Positions 4,522 to 40,578 of a DNA stretch of 40,610 nt are shown here, piece by piece. Every line of letters starts with the position of its first letter. Position 1 is the stretch's first letter. The stretch spans positions 1 to 40,610 of the IMG/VR virus record IMGVR_UViG_3300027987_000164; one strand, 5' to 3'. Made by a program: the position numbers and the translations under genes. Source of the stretch: a virus. Below the pieces are notes generated by a model, which saw nothing but the letters and a program-made list of their open reading frames with translations, had not been told where the DNA came from and did no database searches.

Positions 4522-4935
4522 GTGCGTGGTAAAAGAATCAATAAGATAAATGAGAATATTATTAATTGGGTGGAGGCTACCCTAACTGGGCCCATGACCG
4601 TTGAGCCGTTGGGAAAGGGGGTTTTTAACTACCAGTGTCACTCCAATTGTGTTGCTGAGGCTTTAGAGGATTCAGATAATACTGAAATTATTCAGGTTAT
4701 TTGTAAACAATCCTCTCATGTATATTTGCACTATATAATTTTTAGGGGCGGTAAATACTTAGACCCCTCTATCGGCTGGTTAGTCAACCACACAAGATAT
4801 TTTTACTTAAAAACTTTGGGCAAAGATGACTGGGAGTCAATCCACCATGATTTTGAGCAATCACAAGATCATTACTTTCATAAATTCACCAACTGGTTTG
4901 ACAGAAATTTTTTAAAAATTGACAGGGTTTTATAA
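4522..4935 (+). CDS. Small Cys/His/Asp protein, possible papain-like fold
   Basis: A 137-residue protein between terminase and portal, starting at GTG 4522, two bases after the terminase stop. Its stop overlaps the portal ATG (TAATG), so portal translation is probably coupled to it. C39 (QCHSN), H70 (VYLHY) and D81 (YLDPS) appear in the order and spacing expected of a small papain-like or NlpC/transglutaminase-like fold, and similar unnamed phage proteins carry a CHxN ... H ... D pattern. Composition is visibly more AT-rich than both neighbours, which suggests it was acquired. Enzyme activity is inference; it could be a toxin-like or host-modifying protein carried as an accessory gene. Confidence 0.55.
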   Translation: MRGKRINKINENIINWVEATLTGPMTVEPLGKGVFNYQCHSNCVAEALEDSDNTEIIQVICKQSSHVYLHYIIFRGGKYLDPSIGWLVNHTRYFYLKTLGKDDWESIHHDFEQSQDHYFHKFTNWFDRNFLKIDRVL

Positions 4936-9484: not shown

Positions 9485-11206
9485 ATGTCTACTAAAGTTT
9501 ACCCTTTTGGAACTGTCACGGTCACTGTACCGGACGGCCAAAAAATTACGGTTTTTGCAGAGGATGGCGGTGCGGTAGTTTTTCAGGTAGTTGGGTATCC
9601 CAATCTCCCTGACACCAACAACCAAGTTGCTGACATTACCAACACAACTTATACATCAGCCGCAGTAAGTGGCCCTACTGATTTCGTAATCTCAGCAGGC
9701 CCGGACGGCGCGGTTTACGCGGTGGGGGCTTCCCCCTCGATTTCTGATCCTGTTGGAGATCTCCAGGGTGCAGAAGCTACCTTCAATATTGACGGCCTTG
9801 ACGCTGCTCAGGGCGGAACGGTCGACATTGCGGGCGGTACGTCAAGTACATCGGCCAACGCTGGTGGGGCTGTCAGCTTAACAGGCGGTACTCCGGGGGC
9901 TACTGGTGCGGGTGGCGCTGCCACGGTTGCCGGTGGCGCTGGTGGCTCAACTTCAGGCGCTGGTGGTGCCGTCAGTATTGATGCTGGGGACGCCACAGCG
10001 GGTAACTCAGCCGGCGGGTCAACTTCTGTTACAGGTGGTGATGGATCCGGCTCTTCCTCTGGCGGTGCTGCTACGGTAACCGGTGGCGCTGGTGGTGCTA
10101 CGGGTGCCGGTGGCCCAGCGTCCGTCACTGGTGGTGCTGGTGGTGCTACCTCTGGTGCCGGTGGTGCTACTTCTGTCACAGGGGGCGCGGCCACAGCCGG
10201 TAATAGTGCCGGTGGTGCTGCTTCTGTTGTAGGTGGCGGTGGTTCCGGCTCCGGTGCGGGCGGTGCTGCCAATATCACGGGTGGTGCCCCCGGTGGCAGT
10301 GGTACTGGTGGGGCTGTTGTCCTCACTGGTGCGGCTGGTGGTGCGACTACGGGCGCAGGTGGTGCGATCACAGCTACAGCGGGCGCTGGCACTGGAGGTA
10401 ACAGTGTTGGTGGCGCGGCTAGCTTAACAGCAGGCGCGGGTCAAGGTACTGCAGCGGGTGGCGCGGCCAACTTAACAGCGGGCGCCTCGGGCGCTGGCGC
10501 TACCGGCAACGGTGGGGCAGTATCGGTGCTGGGTGGGGCGGCAGCTTCAACCAATGGCACTGGCGGTGCTGGCACGTTTACTGGTGGTGCTGGTACGGGC
10601 ACCGGGGCAGGTGGTGCGGTTTCAGTAACTGGCGGCGCTGGTGGCGCTTCGGGCGCGGGTGGCGCGGCTAATATTGTGAGCGGGGCTGGTGGTGCCACTA
10701 CGGGCGTCGGTGGCAATATCAATATCACCGCAGGCTCTGCCAATGGGGGCAACTCCAACGGGGGTAGTATCGTAATGACCCCGGGGGTTCAGGATGGTAC
10801 TGGCCTGGTTGGTAATATCCGCATTAAAGGTTTGCACATTGAGCAGCAGATAGCCCCAACCGCTGAAACCGGAGCCGCTACGCTATCGGTTGCTGACTTG
10901 ACTCGGGGCTTGATTACTATTACCCATGCCACCGGGGCAGACGTTGCACTGACCCTTGATACCGGAACTTTGATGGATGCCGGTGTTACTATGGATGTTA
11001 ACGATGCTTTTGATTACTCAGTAATCAATCTGTCGGCAGCAGCTCTGGACACGGCAACGGTTACTGCGTCGGCTGGCCATACGCTGGTCGGGGTGGGGGT
11101 TATTCAGTCCGCCCATGCCACCACGGGTGGCTTGTATGGTAACGCGGCCACCTTCCGGTGCCGTAAGACTGCGGCCAATACGTTCATTTCGTATCGTATT
11201 GCTTAA
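9485..11206 (+). CDS. Glycine-rich head or tail fibre with collagen-like stalk
   Basis: A 573-residue three-part protein right after coat. Residues 1-105 are a small beta domain (FGTVTVTVPDGQKITVF ... VGYPNLPD) of a type I associate with small proteins next to coat genes, probably the virion-binding part. Residues 110-442 are twenty Gly-rich units of 16-18 residues, each starting GG and often reading GGAxSVTGGAGGxTGA. Residues 443-573 are a compact C-terminal domain (ITHATGADVALTLDTG ... FRCRKTAANTFISYRIA) also seen at the ends of other phage surface proteins. The repeat would form a polyglycine-II-like bundle or narrow beta-solenoid, probably trimeric. Likely a capsid decoration fibre that sticks to cells or mucus; a tail fibre is the alternative. 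Confidence 0.7.
   Translation: MSTKVYPFGTVTVTVPDGQKITVFAEDGGAVVFQVVGYPNLPDTNNQVADITNTTYTSAAVSGPTDFVISAGPDGAVYAVGASPSISDPVGDLQGAEATFNIDGLDAAQGGTVDIAGGTSSTSANAGGAVSLTGGTPGATGAGGAATVAGGAGGSTSGAGGAVSIDAGDATAGNSAGGSTSVTGGDGSGSSSGGAATVTGGAGGATGAGGPASVTGGAGGATSGAGGATSVTGGAATAGNSAGGAASVVGGGGSGSGAGGAANITGGAPGGSGTGGAVVLTGAAGGATTGAGGAITATAGAGTGGNSVGGAASLTAGAGQGTAAGGAANLTAGASGAGATGNGGAVSVLGGAAASTNGTGGAGTFTGGAGTGTGAGGAVSVTGGAGGASGAGGAANIVSGAGGATTGVGGNINITAGSANGGNSNGGSIVMTPGVQDGTGLVGNIRIKGLHIEQQIAPTAETGAATLSVADLTRGLITITHATGADVALTLDTGTLMDAGVTMDVNDAFDYSVINLSAAALDTATVTASAGHTLVGVGVIQSAHATTGGLYGNAATFRCRKTAANTFISYRIA
9812..10810 (+). repeat. Gly-rich coding repeat array with four-unit superperiod
   Basis: Encodes twenty units. 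Units 1-12 have lengths 16,17,17,16 three times over, giving three 66-residue (198-bp) super-units at 9863-10060, 10061-10258 and 10259-10456; the third unit of each carries GNS near its end. The next block has lost one unit (51 residues, 10457-10609) and a last block of 67 residues closes the array. The pattern points to growth by duplication of four-unit blocks. Confidence 0.85.
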
Positions 11207-12498: not shown

Positions 12499-12798
12499 AT
12501 GACTATCCACAAGAATTTTGAGCCCATACGTGGGGCTAATCAGGTAACAACCCCGGCTGCCGTGGCGGCATCGGTAAATTTAACCCGGAAATCGAAGTCA
12601 GTCCGGTTGGTGAACACTGGAGGCAATATTTGCCATGTTAGAATAGGCGAAGGGGCCCAGACGGCAACCACGGCAGACATGCCGGTGGCTGCGGGGACTG
12701 AAATCATTGTAAGTAAGGCAGAAACGGACGAAATTCTATCCCATATTTCGGCGGGTGGAACTACTCTGCATGTCCAAGAGGGCCATGCGGGGACTTAA
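12499..12798 (+). CDS. Small beta-rich virion protein (99 aa)
   Basis: Ninety-nine residues, mostly beta: KSKSVRLVNTGGNICHVRIGEGAQTATTADMPVAAGTEI. The layout 'NTGxNxCxVRxG ... ATxADMPVxAG' recurs in small phage proteins near connectors. It may be a decoration or stopper protein. Lies four bases after the preceding gene in the same operon. Function not established. Confidence 0.5.
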   Translation: MTIHKNFEPIRGANQVTTPAAVAASVNLTRKSKSVRLVNTGGNICHVRIGEGAQTATTADMPVAAGTEIIVSKAETDEILSHISAGGTTLHVQEGHAGT

Positions 12799-15489: not shown

Positions 15490-16311
15490 ATGTTAACTCA
15501 AGCAATCATAAACCCGCACGATAATACATTAGCACTTGTTGAAAGCAAGTTGCTTGACCTCCCCCAAGACTCAGCCTCGGTTACCCACCGCTTCGGCCCA
15601 GGTATTTATATTCGCGAAGTTTTCCTGCCTGCGGGCTCCCTCGTTATTGGCCACAGACATAAAGTCGCCCACTCCAACGTCATGCTGAAAGGTAAAATGG
15701 CGGCGGTTGTCTCTGAGGAAAAAATTGTGGAAATGCAAGCCCCGTTGTTTTATACCAGCGGGCCGGGTAGAAAATTTGTCTACGTTATAGAAGATGTGGT
15801 TTTTCAAAATATCTGGGCTACGGGTGAGACCAACATAGACAAGTTGGAGGACATGTTCTTGGAAAAGGGCCAGACATGGCGCAAAGAGCGAGACCAGTTT
15901 TTTAACTTCCAGAAAAAATTACAGCAGTTTGCACGAGATGACTTCAACAGAATAAAAGCCGGGGTCTCGGAAGAAAAAGCTAAGGAGTTTATTTTCTTTC
16001 GCAAACTTCGACAGTTTAAGGGCGTTGAGGATAAAAAATTCTCTGTCCGCCGCTCCCCCATTGAGGGGCGTGGCTTATACGTTACCTCCCCAGTCAATCA
16101 GGGTAGATTGCTGCTCTGTGTAAAAGTAAATTTAATAAATGCCTACAAGGAAATTTATTACATTAACCACTCACCTAAACCAACACTTGGCGTTGACAGG
16201 TGCGGAGACTTCATTAATTTTTATGCCGCTGAATTTCTGCCCGGCTGTATCGGGGGTGACGAGGGGACAGAGTTGACGGTCAGCTACGCTGAATTGTTGG
16301 GGGTTTTATGA
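15490..16311 (+). CDS. Cupin-SET fusion protein
   Basis: A 273-residue two-domain protein. Residues about 15-120 have a cupin layout: FGPGIYIREVFLPAGSLVIGH, metal-ligand candidates H55, H57 and H61 (GHRHKVAH), a turn Gly at 68, and GPGRKFVYVIEDVVFQN for the second motif. Residues 183-273 read as a short SET domain: IEGRGLY (191-197), YINHSPKPT (224-232) and ELTVSY (261-266), matching the GxG, NHSxxPN and ELTxDY motifs of lysine methyltransferases. The Asn after NHS is Thr here. A helical linker joins the parts. Such fusions occur in other phages but I know of no assigned role. It starts in the tail/ejection cluster; its stop overlaps the next start. Activity is inference. Confidence 0.65.
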   Translation: MLTQAIINPHDNTLALVESKLLDLPQDSASVTHRFGPGIYIREVFLPAGSLVIGHRHKVAHSNVMLKGKMAAVVSEEKIVEMQAPLFYTSGPGRKFVYVIEDVVFQNIWATGETNIDKLEDMFLEKGQTWRKERDQFFNFQKKLQQFARDDFNRIKAGVSEEKAKEFIFFRKLRQFKGVEDKKFSVRRSPIEGRGLYVTSPVNQGRLLLCVKVNLINAYKEIYYINHSPKPTLGVDRCGDFINFYAAEFLPGCIGGDEGTELTVSYAELLGVL

Positions 16312-30316: not shown

Positions 30317-31114
30317 TTATCGCTTGCGTGGCCGTGACTTGGAAGTTCTGGGCTTAGCCCTCGGCGGAGGGGCTTCCTCTTCCTTGGGGTCCGGATAGGG
30401 GTACAGAATTTCCTCAGCCAGCCCCACCGCTCGCTCCCGGCAAATGCTCAGTGCGTCACCAGTCAATTTTTCCAGCATTTTAAACTTGATTTGAAATTGC
30501 GTCTTAGCGTCCGGCTCCACCGAAACCAGAGTGACCACAGTGTGAAGTGGCCGCTTGTGGAGCGTGGCGCAGGTTTTTACGTAGCCAGAAAAGTTTTTGA
30601 GCGAGGTGGGGGAGACTTTGAGAAAGACGACCTCACCGCCCTGAAAGTCCTCGGTATCTTCGAAAATCTCGAAATTGCCGTCATCGTCGAAATTGCCCGC
30701 GTGGAGCAGAGCCAGGCGGCGGCCATTTTTACAGGCTTTGCCTTTGCCCTTGTCGGCGCTGCCCCACTCATTGTCTGGGCACTGCTCGCAGGAATCCGCA
30801 ATAGCATCACCCCGATCAACTACGTTTTTAGCGGGTATAAGGTCGTCTTCATTGTGTGCTACCGCGTAGCAATCCGGTGGCTGTGGGTTGTCTGCGTCGT
30901 AATCAGAGAGATAGCGGGCGTTTTCAAACGCGTTGGCCAGAATAACACACGCCACTTGGTTATCGGGTAGCGCCTGACCGTTGTACTTGAGAATACCCCC
31001 AGCGGTTGAGAGTGTGGTTAGCCCGGAGCTTTCCTCTTTCGCAGCCTCCGCCGCTTCCCTTTCGAGTTCCTGTTCGAGTGTCATTACTTCTTTGTCTTTT
31101 GCTTTTTTAGCCAT
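30317..31114 (-). CDS. Conserved zinc-containing phage replication-region protein
   Basis: A 265-residue protein. The segment CEQCPDNEWGSADKGKGKACKNGRRLALL with C near 109 and 112 and a later Cys, preceded by DCYAVAHNEDDLIP and followed by SPTSLKNFSGYVKTCA, matches a recurrent family in tailed phages ('CxxCPxNxWGSAxxGKGKACKxxRRLALL ... PPTSLKNWxxYV'). Family members lie in replication clusters and have been suggested as DNA-binding or single-strand-binding proteins; I regard that as unproven. C-terminus is basic and Pro-rich. ATG 31114 is preferred over GTG 31126 for GAGGG five bases upstream. Confidence 0.65.
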   Translation of the reverse strand: MAKKAKDKEVMTLEQELEREAAEAAKEESSGLTTLSTAGGILKYNGQALPDNQVACVILANAFENARYLSDYDADNPQPPDCYAVAHNEDDLIPAKNVVDRGDAIADSCEQCPDNEWGSADKGKGKACKNGRRLALLHAGNFDDDGNFEIFEDTEDFQGGEVVFLKVSPTSLKNFSGYVKTCATLHKRPLHTVVTLVSVEPDAKTQFQIKFKMLEKLTGDALSICRERAVGLAEEILYPYPDPKEEEAPPPRAKPRTSKSRPRKR

Positions 31115-31122
31115 GCTGGCCC

Positions 31123-31503
31123 TCACTTAGCTTTGGTTATTGAAACGGATACCACATTAAAGAAATCAATGCCGGGGATTTTCTCCCCCTCTTCAAAACG
31201 GGCCTTAATGGCGGCCTCACTCAAACGGCGCTGGAGTAAATCAAAAGCCTCGTTTTCCTTCACGTAGTTGTAGAATTTATCGTAGTCCTTAACTTGGGGG
31301 ACGGCCTTGGTTACTACCCGGACGTTAGCCAGCTTGCCTGAAGCGCCGGTTAACTTGCTTTTGGGTAGTGACTCAATTACATGCTCTTTGAGTGCCTTAA
31401 TCTCCTCCTCAATGGCGGTGACTTTCTTGCTCGCCTCACGCTTTTTCTCATTGAGCTGGTACAGCTTATCGGCGCAGCCGCCTAAGGTTTTAGGAATTGA
31501 CAT
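31123..31503 (-). CDS. Conserved phage protein (126 aa), coiled coil plus conserved core
   Basis: A 126-residue protein. An N-terminal coiled coil (KLYQLNEKKREASKKVTAIEEEIKALKEHVIESLPKS) leads to a conserved-looking core: GKLANVRVVTKAVPQVKDYDKFYNYVKENEAFDLLQRRLSEAAIKARFEEGEKIPGIDFFNV. I recall 'DWDKFYxYVxKxxxFDLLQRR' from proteins commonly beside the previous zinc family, which supports a shared function. ATG 31503 has GAGGAG seven bases upstream. Role unknown; recombination or single-strand binding is possible. Confidence 0.62.
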   Translation of the reverse strand: MSIPKTLGGCADKLYQLNEKKREASKKVTAIEEEIKALKEHVIESLPKSKLTGASGKLANVRVVTKAVPQVKDYDKFYNYVKENEAFDLLQRRLSEAAIKARFEEGEKIPGIDFFNVVSVSITKAK

Positions 31504-37330: not shown

Positions 37331-37486
37331 CTACGCATGCGCGTAAAAAACATCAACAGAAATAATTTCGACATTACCCAGCCATTTTTTAGCCTGCGCT
37401 TTAGCGCTGACGTTATTGCTTGCATAAAAGAGCATTGATTCTTCTTCGTCTGGGTAAATTTTATAAGTAACTTTGTATGCGTGCAT
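37331..37486 (-). CDS. Small protein after the structured RNA (51 aa)
   Basis: ATG 37486 with GAGGAG seven bases upstream. The 51-residue product (MHAYKVTYKIYPDEEESML ... NVSAKAQAKKWLGNVEIISV) is a small alpha/beta unit of a type found at the end of Ash-like phage proteins, which gather next to C4-like immunity RNAs. The open frame actually continues upstream through the RNA region to 37690, so a longer Ash-type product is possible but would encode RNA-like sequence. A role as the RNA-controlled target is inference. Confidence 0.6.
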   Translation of the reverse strand: MHAYKVTYKIYPDEEESMLFYASNNVSAKAQAKKWLGNVEIISVDVFYAHA

Positions 37487-37499
37487 GTTTATCTCCTCA

Positions 37500-37720
37500 A
37501 TTAGCAAAACGGTTTTTAACCAGACCGTAAACTGGCCGCACTTCCTATCACCTTTGCGCCATCTGACGCTGCCTTCGCTCATATTAGACCCGGCTTTGCT
37601 GGCGGTCCTCTTGAGACCGGATAGGGAGTCACTCCCCCCATAGCCGGTTCTGCGTGCGTGCGGCACACAGCCGCTTATTGGGCGGCCCACCGGGGCAGGT
37701 AAGCTAGCAATCCCTCCCTC
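37500..37720 (-). ncRNA. Structured RNA, candidate C4-like antisense RNA
   Basis: The longest gap in the leftward block is packed with minus-strand hairpins: GCCC/GGGC (37685-37696), GCGGC-TGTGT-GCCGC (37660-37674), ACCGG/CCGGT (37616-37648) enclosing GGGAG/CTCCC, GCGTC-AGAT-GGCGC (37556-37569) and ACGGT/ACCGT (37509-37528). GCCGCAC in the second hairpin (37658-37664) is complementary to GTGCGGC near the downstream ribosome site (37535-37541). From memory, the AATAAGCGGC ... GCCGCACGCACGCAGAACCGG neighbourhood resembles C4 antisense RNAs of P1/P7-type phages, which silence an antirepressor message. No antirepressor gene is recognised here. Structure is clear; family is tentative. Confidence 0.45.
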
Positions 37721-37734
37721 AGTGTTTGTGTTTC

Positions 37735-38145
37735 CTACATTTCAGATGTTCGAATTATGGTTTTCATTTTCTGTAGCAGATTGCATACGTTGTCAATTTC
37801 ATCAATGTGAATTGGCACCACATGTGAGCCCGCTAATTTAAGACTTAGATGCACAGTTTCTCCGCCCGTCATGGCGCCGGGTTCATATTGAACACAGTGT
37901 TTTTCAAAGCTGAGTATTAGTGAACCATCAACACTGTGCTTAGGTTTTCGTTCTGCATCAGTTTTAGTTTGTTCGAGTGTAAAATGTTCGGGCATACTAC
38001 TTTGATGGGTAATCCCATCAACCTCGTAGGCAAAGATCGACCCATCGACCCGAGTAACCAAACCCACCCTGCCCCTCAAATGTTCGTAAAAGTTTTTCGG
38101 GAGTCCTTTTGCCCGTCTTATGCGGTCACCGACTTTAAATTTCAT
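37735..38145 (-). CDS. Hypothetical protein (136 aa), KOW-like start
   Basis: 136 residues. The start MKFKVGDRIRRAKGLPKNFYEHLRGRVGLVTRVDG looks like a small SH3/KOW-type barrel used for RNA or protein contacts. The C-terminal half (LSLKLAGSHVVPIHIDEIDNVCNLLQKMKTII) is a mixed domain. It is the first gene after the primase in the leftward direction with its own extended -10 promoter. Function unknown. Confidence 0.55.
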   Translation of the reverse strand: MKFKVGDRIRRAKGLPKNFYEHLRGRVGLVTRVDGSIFAYEVDGITHQSSMPEHFTLEQTKTDAERKPKHSVDGSLILSFEKHCVQYEPGAMTGGETVHLSLKLAGSHVVPIHIDEIDNVCNLLQKMKTIIRTSEM

Positions 38146-38213: not shown

Positions 38214-40364
38214 TTAGTAATTGTACCCGCCGTCGTTATCATCAATCAACTGCAAATAGGCTTCAATGTGGTTTTTCGCGGCACCTTGTGTCCAGGCCCG
38301 CCAGTTTTGTGGCTCTCTTATTTCAAAGTAGCGGCCCTGGCTGCCATCCCTGAGCTTGATGGGGCGGCCATCGCAGATCTGACGAAAGCCCGCACTGGTT
38401 AGCGCACGGCTCATGCCAGTAGCGGTCACCTTAGTTTGATTGCCCGGATCATAGAGGGTTAACAGCTCCCCACTGGTGTAAAGGCTGCGCTCGCGTGGCA
38501 AATTAGCTGCCCCCAGGAGACCATCGGGGTTTTCCATGAGCAGGTGGGCCCAGCTGGACAGGTCAGATTGGCCCTGTAAGATCATGCGCTGCTTGGCCGC
38601 TGTGCGGTACGCGGGCGCCGATGGGTCAAAGTCAATCGTCTGGACCCCCAGCAAATAGTGGAACAGGGCCTCGGCCCCTCCGTGGTCAAGCCAGTATTTG
38701 TAATTTTGATAGAACTCCATCTCTTTCGGCCCAGCCGTGACCTCGTGAATAAAATATCGGCGGTCGTCATCTTCGAGGAAAAACGCGTCAGCGTGTTGAG
38801 ACGTAAAGTAATAATTAATACAGTCAGGTACCCAGAATTCCCGCACGTTCTTGATGTTGACGCAAAGCTCCTCTTGTGTGATCAGGGTTTTTAGGAAGTC
38901 GGCATCTCGCCGATGCTTTGAGCCGGTGATGTCGTCCCCCATGACAAACTGTTTATTCTCTGCCCATCCACTGAATTCTCTGGTCACATCCCCTTGGCGG
39001 ATAGTACGGAAATTCTTCCCGTAAATGCGCTTAAGCGTGTAGCCCACCAGCGATTTACCGGTACCTTGCCGGATTCCATGCACTACCACCGCACTAAACA
39101 TCTTGGCGCCGGGATTTTGAAGGGGGTACGCGCACCACTTGAGGAACCACTTAAGAGCCTGGGGCTCGGCATCCTGGAAAAGGTGGTCCATGAGGTCGCG
39201 AAAAGGGTCAATGTTGCCGCGCTTTGGTTTGCACCCCCACCCTGGCCAGACGTTGTACTCACCCTCCCTGGTTATGCGGTCCTCGCCGGGGGCGTAGGTG
39301 ACTTTTTTGCATTCGGACCTCAGTGGCCATTTAAGCCAGGCGGCGGCGGCCGGCACTTTCTTATAGCTGATTTCTCCGTCTGCTTTTAGGGTTTGCTCCT
39401 GGTAAAAACAATTGGCCGCGTGGTGTTCTTTGAACGCGCCGGGGGCGAGCTTGTTGTCCATGTCGGATTGATCAACTATGAAGCCGGGATTTTTTATGTA
39501 GACGTATTTTTTATTGAGGTCAAAAAGTGGTTTCGTAATCCCCAATGGGAGGGCTTGGTACAGCAGCTCCTCGAAGCACTGGCCGGGGTTGGGCTGTGCC
39601 ACTAGGTAATCGTCGAGCCCGACTTTGTCGAGCCCTGGAAGTTGGGGCAGTGAGACTAAATAGGCAAAGGCTCCGCGCTGGTGGAGTGCGTCTGCGAATG
39701 ATTTAAGAGCGCTGCATACCGCCGGGTTGGTTCGGTAATCCGAATCGAAGCAGACATAGACATTTCGCCTTTCCCATTTAATAAGGTCCAGTGAAGGCAA
39801 CCAGTCAACACCTTTTTTTAATGCGCGCCAGTTATGCACACCCCCAAGGCCGATGCAGTTAAAACCTTCAATTGACGCCTTGGCCGCTTTTAGTTCGCCC
39901 TCAGTTACAACCAAGGGGACTTCTGCGTCATCGATTATGTCACCCCAGCGTGTGAAGCCTTGGGGGAAGTAAGTTACCGGGAGTGTGTTGGGTGGTTGTG
40001 AATAACGGAATGATTTTATGCCGCCGAATTCTTTTGAATCTTCGAGGTAACGGACCCGGAAAAATGGTTTTCCCTCTGGTATGTCAGAGAGTGGTTTGCC
40101 GTCGGGACCAAAGTAATTAAGTTTTAAACAATCAAGAGTTTTTGCACCTCGAAAAAGTTTCGCCGTTTTTTTGCAGCTGACGGTTTCTATTTTTAATTTT
40201 TCCGATTGGGCCTCGGTTATACCCGATGACTTTAATTTTTCCAATGCCGCGGCGCGGGCTTTTTTAGACAAACTATGGTCGGATTTGTACATTGGATCAC
40301 TCTGCTTGTAATTGTTGACTAAGCTCTCGGCTTCCCCTGACTCGGCGCTGGGGGAGTGCCCCAC
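38214..40364 (-). CDS. TOPRIM primase - superfamily 3 helicase
   Basis: Starts replication by making primers and unwinding DNA; 716 residues. Residues 130-255 form a TOPRIM-like (DUF3854-type) part with E155 (TEGELKA) and DSD at 207-209 (VCFDSDY), and KVGLDDYLV. From residue 390 an SF3/D5-type helicase (DUF5906-like) follows: Walker A GIRQGTGKS (430-438), VMGDDITG near 475 as Walker B, and a sensor motif INYYFTSQHADAFF. GTG 40364 lies inside an inverted repeat and lacks a Shine-Dalgarno site; ATG at 40292 is the alternative. Adjacent to the repeat-rich region, it may bind there as initiator. Confidence 0.9.
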   Translation of the reverse strand: MGHSPSAESGEAESLVNNYKQSDPMYKSDHSLSKKARAAALEKLKSSGITEAQSEKLKIETVSCKKTAKLFRGAKTLDCLKLNYFGPDGKPLSDIPEGKPFFRVRYLEDSKEFGGIKSFRYSQPPNTLPVTYFPQGFTRWGDIIDDAEVPLVVTEGELKAAKASIEGFNCIGLGGVHNWRALKKGVDWLPSLDLIKWERRNVYVCFDSDYRTNPAVCSALKSFADALHQRGAFAYLVSLPQLPGLDKVGLDDYLVAQPNPGQCFEELLYQALPLGITKPLFDLNKKYVYIKNPGFIVDQSDMDNKLAPGAFKEHHAANCFYQEQTLKADGEISYKKVPAAAAWLKWPLRSECKKVTYAPGEDRITREGEYNVWPGWGCKPKRGNIDPFRDLMDHLFQDAEPQALKWFLKWCAYPLQNPGAKMFSAVVVHGIRQGTGKSLVGYTLKRIYGKNFRTIRQGDVTREFSGWAENKQFVMGDDITGSKHRRDADFLKTLITQEELCVNIKNVREFWVPDCINYYFTSQHADAFFLEDDDRRYFIHEVTAGPKEMEFYQNYKYWLDHGGAEALFHYLLGVQTIDFDPSAPAYRTAAKQRMILQGQSDLSSWAHLLMENPDGLLGAANLPRERSLYTSGELLTLYDPGNQTKVTATGMSRALTSAGFRQICDGRPIKLRDGSQGRYFEIREPQNWRAWTQGAAKNHIEAYLQLIDDNDGGYNY

Positions 40365-40432: not shown

Positions 40433-40442
40433 GGGAAATGAG

Positions 40443-40578
40443 TATACAGGTTTGCTACAGTTTGGCAAAGTGTATACGGGGGGTGTGTTTTTTTGAAAAA
40501 AAAGTTTTGTTTAAAATCAATGACTTAAGTCCTCGGCGCACCAACTTGGTGCAATATACAGTTTGGCGTATACACTTA
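40443..40578. repeat. Iteron-like short repeats, right cluster
   Basis: TATACAGTTTG at 40555-40565, variants CTACAGTTTGGC (40455-40466) and TATACAGGTTTG (40443-40454), AAAGTGTATA at 40467-40476, and its inverse TATACACTTA at 40569-40578. These match the left cluster, so both belong to one region in the circular form. Confidence 0.6.
40538..40552. promoter_or_regulatory. 15-bp dyad, operator candidate
   Basis: GCACCAA-C-TTGGTGC is a perfect seven-base dyad with one central base, the size of a dimeric repressor site. It lies between the repeat copies, in the space that controls both divergent gene blocks. Confidence 0.5.

Follow-up and report, generated by a model that had tools for sequence, protein, structure and literature searches.

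A candidate structured RNA of about 140 nt shared by the early operons of two related phages

Searches of the early accessory regions in lytic phages usually look for nothing but small proteins. Several groups of structured RNA are close to what we describe here. The put- and nut-type antitermination RNAs of lambdoid phages are structured, operon-sense RNAs of the early operon. The C4 and c4-a1b1 RNAs of P1, P7, and related phages are noncoding RNAs upstream of a small open reading frame (ORF) on the same transcript, C4 being one long stem around two hairpins. The STAXI motif is a tandemly repeated pseudoknot found close to SSB genes and to C4 RNAs (Weinberg et al. 2010, PMC2864571), and phage-derived small RNAs have been reviewed (PMC12197685).

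The element considered here occupies about 138 nt (37549 to 37686, minus strand) of IMG/VR record IMGVR_UViG_3300027987_000164, the whole 40,610-nt stretch of which was analyzed and is called the window below. Like the C4 group, it is phage-encoded and noncoding and lies upstream of a small ORF on the same transcript, but its architecture is different, it has no match to a covariance model of that group, and it comes with neither an antirepressor nor an Ash gene, nor with a significant complementary target nearby. It shares with STAXI a predicted structure and a place among DNA-replication genes of mobile DNA, but it is single and unrepeated, with no Rfam match at E ≤ 10. Likewise, it resembles the put and nut RNAs in being structured, operon-sense, and early, whereas its mid-operon position, its rarity among relatives, and again the lack of an Rfam match set it apart. 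With phage-derived small RNAs it has in common an early or accessory region and possible processing; none of them is a sequence relative of the element.

The initial annotation had proposed a C4-like antisense RNA here, and membership of the C4 family could be tested directly. Neither the window nor the related phage contig described below (G041) matched the C4 model RF01695 (gathering score, 45 bits) at E ≤ 10, and the window had no match to c4-a1b1 (RF03163) at the same cutoff. In the same search the positive control, phage P1, gave C4 at 68.8 bits, and cmscan found both C4 and c4-a1b1 there. Across all of Rfam 15, nothing exceeded its gathering score in the window or, with lax filters, in the intergenic gap alone; the best low-scoring matches (HOTAIR_2, M23, and Clostridiales-2) fall far short of the threshold and are not plausible. 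Neither the long stem enclosing two hairpins that defines C4 nor C4 target segments were found. The Ash family (PF10554) is absent from the window, which removes the Ash-type neighborhood that had been part of the proposal, and we reject C4 family membership. The tyrosine integrase (PF00589) and ANT (PF03374) domains are also absent from the window. The different immunity circuit that the initial annotation had raised as a possibility therefore has no footing in the evidence.

The gap itself, given earlier as about 250 bases, is real: it spans 248 nt (37487-37734) between two minus-strand genes and is richer in G+C than its flanks. Upstream of the element is a 136-aa ORF (37735-38145, minus strand) with a weak phrog_4317 match (E = 9e-4), and downstream is a 51-aa ORF (37331-37486, minus strand; ATG at 37486, Shine-Dalgarno [SD] sequence GAGGAG at 37498-37493) that has no known family and no Pfam match. 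Both belong to a leftward early operon whose first gene is the primase gene (38214-40364, minus strand). Some 80 nt ahead of the primase start, at 40441-40468 on the minus strand, a promoter-like site (TTGCCA, 16 nt, TATACT) is a candidate for the start of this operon. ARAGORN found no tRNA or tmRNA genes in the window.

Read alone, the gap gives no ground for calling its sequence special. The minus strand is predicted to form 5 or 6 hairpins, in line with the "at least five" counted initially, but the minimum free energy (MFE) of -86.2 is close to the shuffle mean of -84.5 (z = -0.35; 65 of 200 shuffles fold as well), and the plus strand has the same z against dinucleotide shuffles; unusual folding stability is thus rejected. 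The seven-base complementarity to the leader of the 51-aa gene (GCCGCAC/GTGCGGC) does exist. Its proposed antisense meaning does not stand, since complementarity of at least 7 bases to the leader arises in 41% of dinucleotide shuffles. A stop-free minus-strand frame crosses the gap into the 51-aa gene; we reject a coding extension of that gene because the homologous gap described below has stops in all three frames. A conserved RNA can occupy a gap of ordinary folding energy, and this one came into view once a distant relative was found.

A near relative by DNA was not found in the phage collection; the window's primase has homologues of 46 to 49% identity in Stenotrophomonas phage AXL_3, Pseudoxanthomonas phage PW916, and one unclassified phage. 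Seventy viral contigs were retrieved with an alignment of primase homologues and compared to the gap by blastn, which gave a single suggestive match. It lies in a locus (L057) of G041, the 36.9-kb contig IMGVR_UViG_3300038859_000015, whose proteins are 60% (terminase), 55% (primase), 53% (DNA polymerase), and 52% (portal) identical to those of the window. The homologous element covers positions 10993-11138 (plus strand) of L057. With match/mismatch scores of 5/-4, blastn aligns window positions 37683-37548 to G041 positions 16067-16209 over 148 columns with 66% identity (E = 5e-6); with 2/-3, element and homologue give E = 0.002. The p value estimated from shuffled queries by a Gumbel fit is 1.3e-5. 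Because the match was chosen from 74 sequences, an honest E value is perhaps twenty times larger, which is still small. Single-sequence nhmmer did not detect the pair.

Of 105 aligned columns 35 carry a substitution, so that the two elements are about 67% identical, and the genes of the two phages are 64 to 67% identical in nucleotides. A noncoding gap that aligns as well as genes do is therefore under constraint. A shared protein is excluded, since each of the three frames of the L057 gap contains stops and the alignment contains indels of 1 and 2 nt that break the frame; ordinary coding sequence is thereby set aside. The longest identical block is the 14-nt UAUCCGGUCUCAAG, of which AUCCGGUCUCAAG (37610-37622, minus strand) is a part, and further invariant blocks are the loop CCAAUAA and CAGAACCGGCU.

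The two sequences also support common helices, all given for the minus strand of the window. Hairpin S0 (37670-37686), GCCGC-CCAAUAA-GCGGC, corresponds to AAGGC-CCAAUAA-GCCUU in L057: all five pairs are kept, three of them altered on both sides around the identical loop, and the hairpin occurs in both the MFE and the centroid fold of the window. Hairpin S3 (37556-37569), GCGUC-AGAU-GGCGC, corresponds to GCCGU-ACAG-ACGGC, again with 5/5 pairs kept and three altered on both sides, and it occurs in the MFE folds of both sequences. S3 and a GCC/GGC pairing are enclosed by helix S5 (37549-37604), in which CGCC (37604-37601) pairs with GGUG (37552-37549); the L057 counterpart is UGCC/GGCG, with 4/4 pairs kept, two of them through one-sided changes to G-U. 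Helix S1 (37616-37648), ACCGG (37648-37644) with CCGGU (37620-37616), closes an apical hairpin of variable sequence. Its five pairs are all invariant, so it is uninformative on covariation, and since the window's MFE structure pairs ACCGG with a GCCGGGU stretch instead, S1 is tentative.

Shifting the partners abolishes the pairing. For S3 alone, under a conservative null in which random letters replace those in the changed columns, the chance of keeping its pairs is about 0.065, and S0 is comparable; column shuffles for the helices are not extreme. All G-U pairs in the counted helices are minus-strand pairs that would become A-C on the plus strand, which supports assigning the RNA to the operon-sense strand. 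Taken together, S0 and S3, the invariant loops and blocks, and the strand-specific G-U pairs make a good, though not final, case for a structured RNA. The initial annotation's suggestion that the leftward early operon contains a structured RNA is in this way supported, on grounds that were not visible in the single sequence, by homology to a relative and by compensatory changes: six two-sided changes, all leaving a pair, although two sequences make this covariation support modest.

The element's surroundings differ between the phages. Among the other relatives examined, a conserved 269-aa gene nearly always comes straight after a Gp157-like gene or is separated from it by a short leader. L057 has a 48-aa ORF and the element at this place, between the two genes; in the window the same two genes meet without a gap, and the element is about 6 kb away, flanked by genes with no counterpart in L057. 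Both phages carry a single copy. A covariance model of the element found no copy besides that of G041 in 73 whole relative records and only the G041 copy in the 74 source loci. No third homologue appeared in blastn searches of phages and plasmids, in five pattern scans of viral contigs and one of genome contigs, or in a loop-based scan; other pattern-scan matches look like chance or coding sequence. By these searches, the element is rare and accessory.

At the level of sequence, then, the comparison establishes homology, noncoding character, compensated helices, the operon-sense strand, a single copy, unrelated neighbors, and rarity. The reading we favor, tentatively, is a new, rare, and movable accessory noncoding RNA unit of about 140 nt in two lytic-type phages, produced from the early transcript and acting in trans. 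Under this reading two related phages would have acquired a structured, operon-sense RNA, each at its own point in the early operon. Because its neighbors differ while the RNA persists, as in a moron-like unit, it would act on its own. It would bind a protein or an RNA, of the phage or of the host, while the cell is being taken over, and would not serve to regulate the adjoining gene. There is no match to a strong promoter directly upstream of the element or to a terminator directly downstream, so the RNA would be cut from the operon transcript or act within it. As a defined sequence of 138 nt with listed helices, the element would offer a target for transcriptome searches.

The distance from the end of the element to a downstream start codon is about 60 nt in both phages, and a cis-acting leader would fit this similar spacing too. 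Control of the translation or stability of the next gene by a 5'-untranslated-region element, perhaps through a phage protein, is the main rival reading, which we regard as somewhat unlikely. A good SD sequence stands at that start codon in both cases (the 51-aa ORF in the window and the 269-aa ORF in L057), and in L057 it is predicted to be paired (unpaired probability, 0.07). Leaving the element out, however, hardly alters that pairing (0.13), and the SD of the window is open (0.54), so occlusion of the SD by the element is not supported. The downstream genes are moreover unrelated in the two phages, which together with the element-independent SD pairing weakens the case for a cis leader, and the 269-aa gene lacks such an element in other relatives.

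It seems decidedly unlikely that the element serves the remainder of the long early operon as a cis-acting antitermination or RNA-processing signal for RNA polymerase or RNases, either put-like or a cleavage site. Such a role would agree with the operon sense of the RNA and with a position not bound to one gene, and about 2 kb downstream in the window there is a good same-strand intrinsic terminator (35552-35528, minus strand; GCCCCC-UUCG-GGGGGC followed by UUUUUU) in a 64-nt gap inside the leftward operon. Against it, the element sits in mid-operon rather than at the operon start and is absent from most relatives, and the scanned stretch of G041 gave a single strong terminator on the same strand (12719-12746), which is upstream of the element (16096).

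That the two copies are a decaying remnant without present function, alike by descent, is improbable. Only two copies are known, in different places and with ordinary folding energy, as such a remnant might have; yet at 64 to 67% nucleotide identity between genes, neutral DNA should have lost identical blocks of 11 and 14 nt, and six two-sided compensations are unexpected in neutral noncoding DNA. Very improbable, too, is a DNA element for replication or packaging that would fold into its hairpins when single-stranded. The primase gene is near the element in the window and the position is not tied to one gene, but G-U at compensated positions fits an RNA of one strand, neither copy has iterons nearby, and the skew minimum in both phages is at the primase end of the operon rather than at the element. 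Finally, a C4-type antisense RNA controlling the neighboring gene, to which hairpins upstream of a small ORF and the seven-base complementarity would be suited, is hardly credible given the failed RF01695 and RF03163 searches beside a working control, the chance-level complementarity, and the missing Ash and ANT domains.

A bolder version of the trans-acting reading is unlikely. In it the element would stand for a class of mobile phage RNAs that is new: a cassette of about 140 nt, complete in itself, that hops from one early-operon site to another in related phages and acts alone, for example as a counter-defense or host-takeover RNA or as a self-cleaving ribozyme. If a conserved structured RNA does move like a gene, functions in takeover and counter-defense can be RNA-borne. 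As it stands, the element, with its two members, is a candidate for a new family of RNA.

Further features were noted. Just before the 51-aa gene (37505-37530, minus strand), two small hairpins that could not form together, GCCAG/CUGGU and ACGGU/ACCGU followed by UUUU, resemble a weak attenuator and are not conserved in L057. In the same leader, UUAAAAACCGUUUUGCU (37503-37519, minus strand) is 71% complementary (12/17) to the conserved AGCAAAGCCGGGUCUAA (37584-37600), with no counterpart seen in L057. That the gene downstream of the element in L057 encodes a single-strand-binding protein, which would suggest autoregulation, found no support: it has no Pfam match and no meaningful fold match. 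The AlphaFold model of the 269-aa protein has a pLDDT of 74, with no fold match in the PDB. Its gene in the window (30317-31126, minus strand) and its homologues encode a conserved early protein (phrog_27714) beside the Gp157-like gene in many relatives. In five of these (L014, L008, L016, L017, and L018), the leader upstream of the 269-aa gene contains GC-rich complementary segments and TAACTAGTTAGGAGTTCCTAATC; in L014, for instance, it spans about 4770-4857, at the junction that holds the element in L057. These are possibly another leader RNA.
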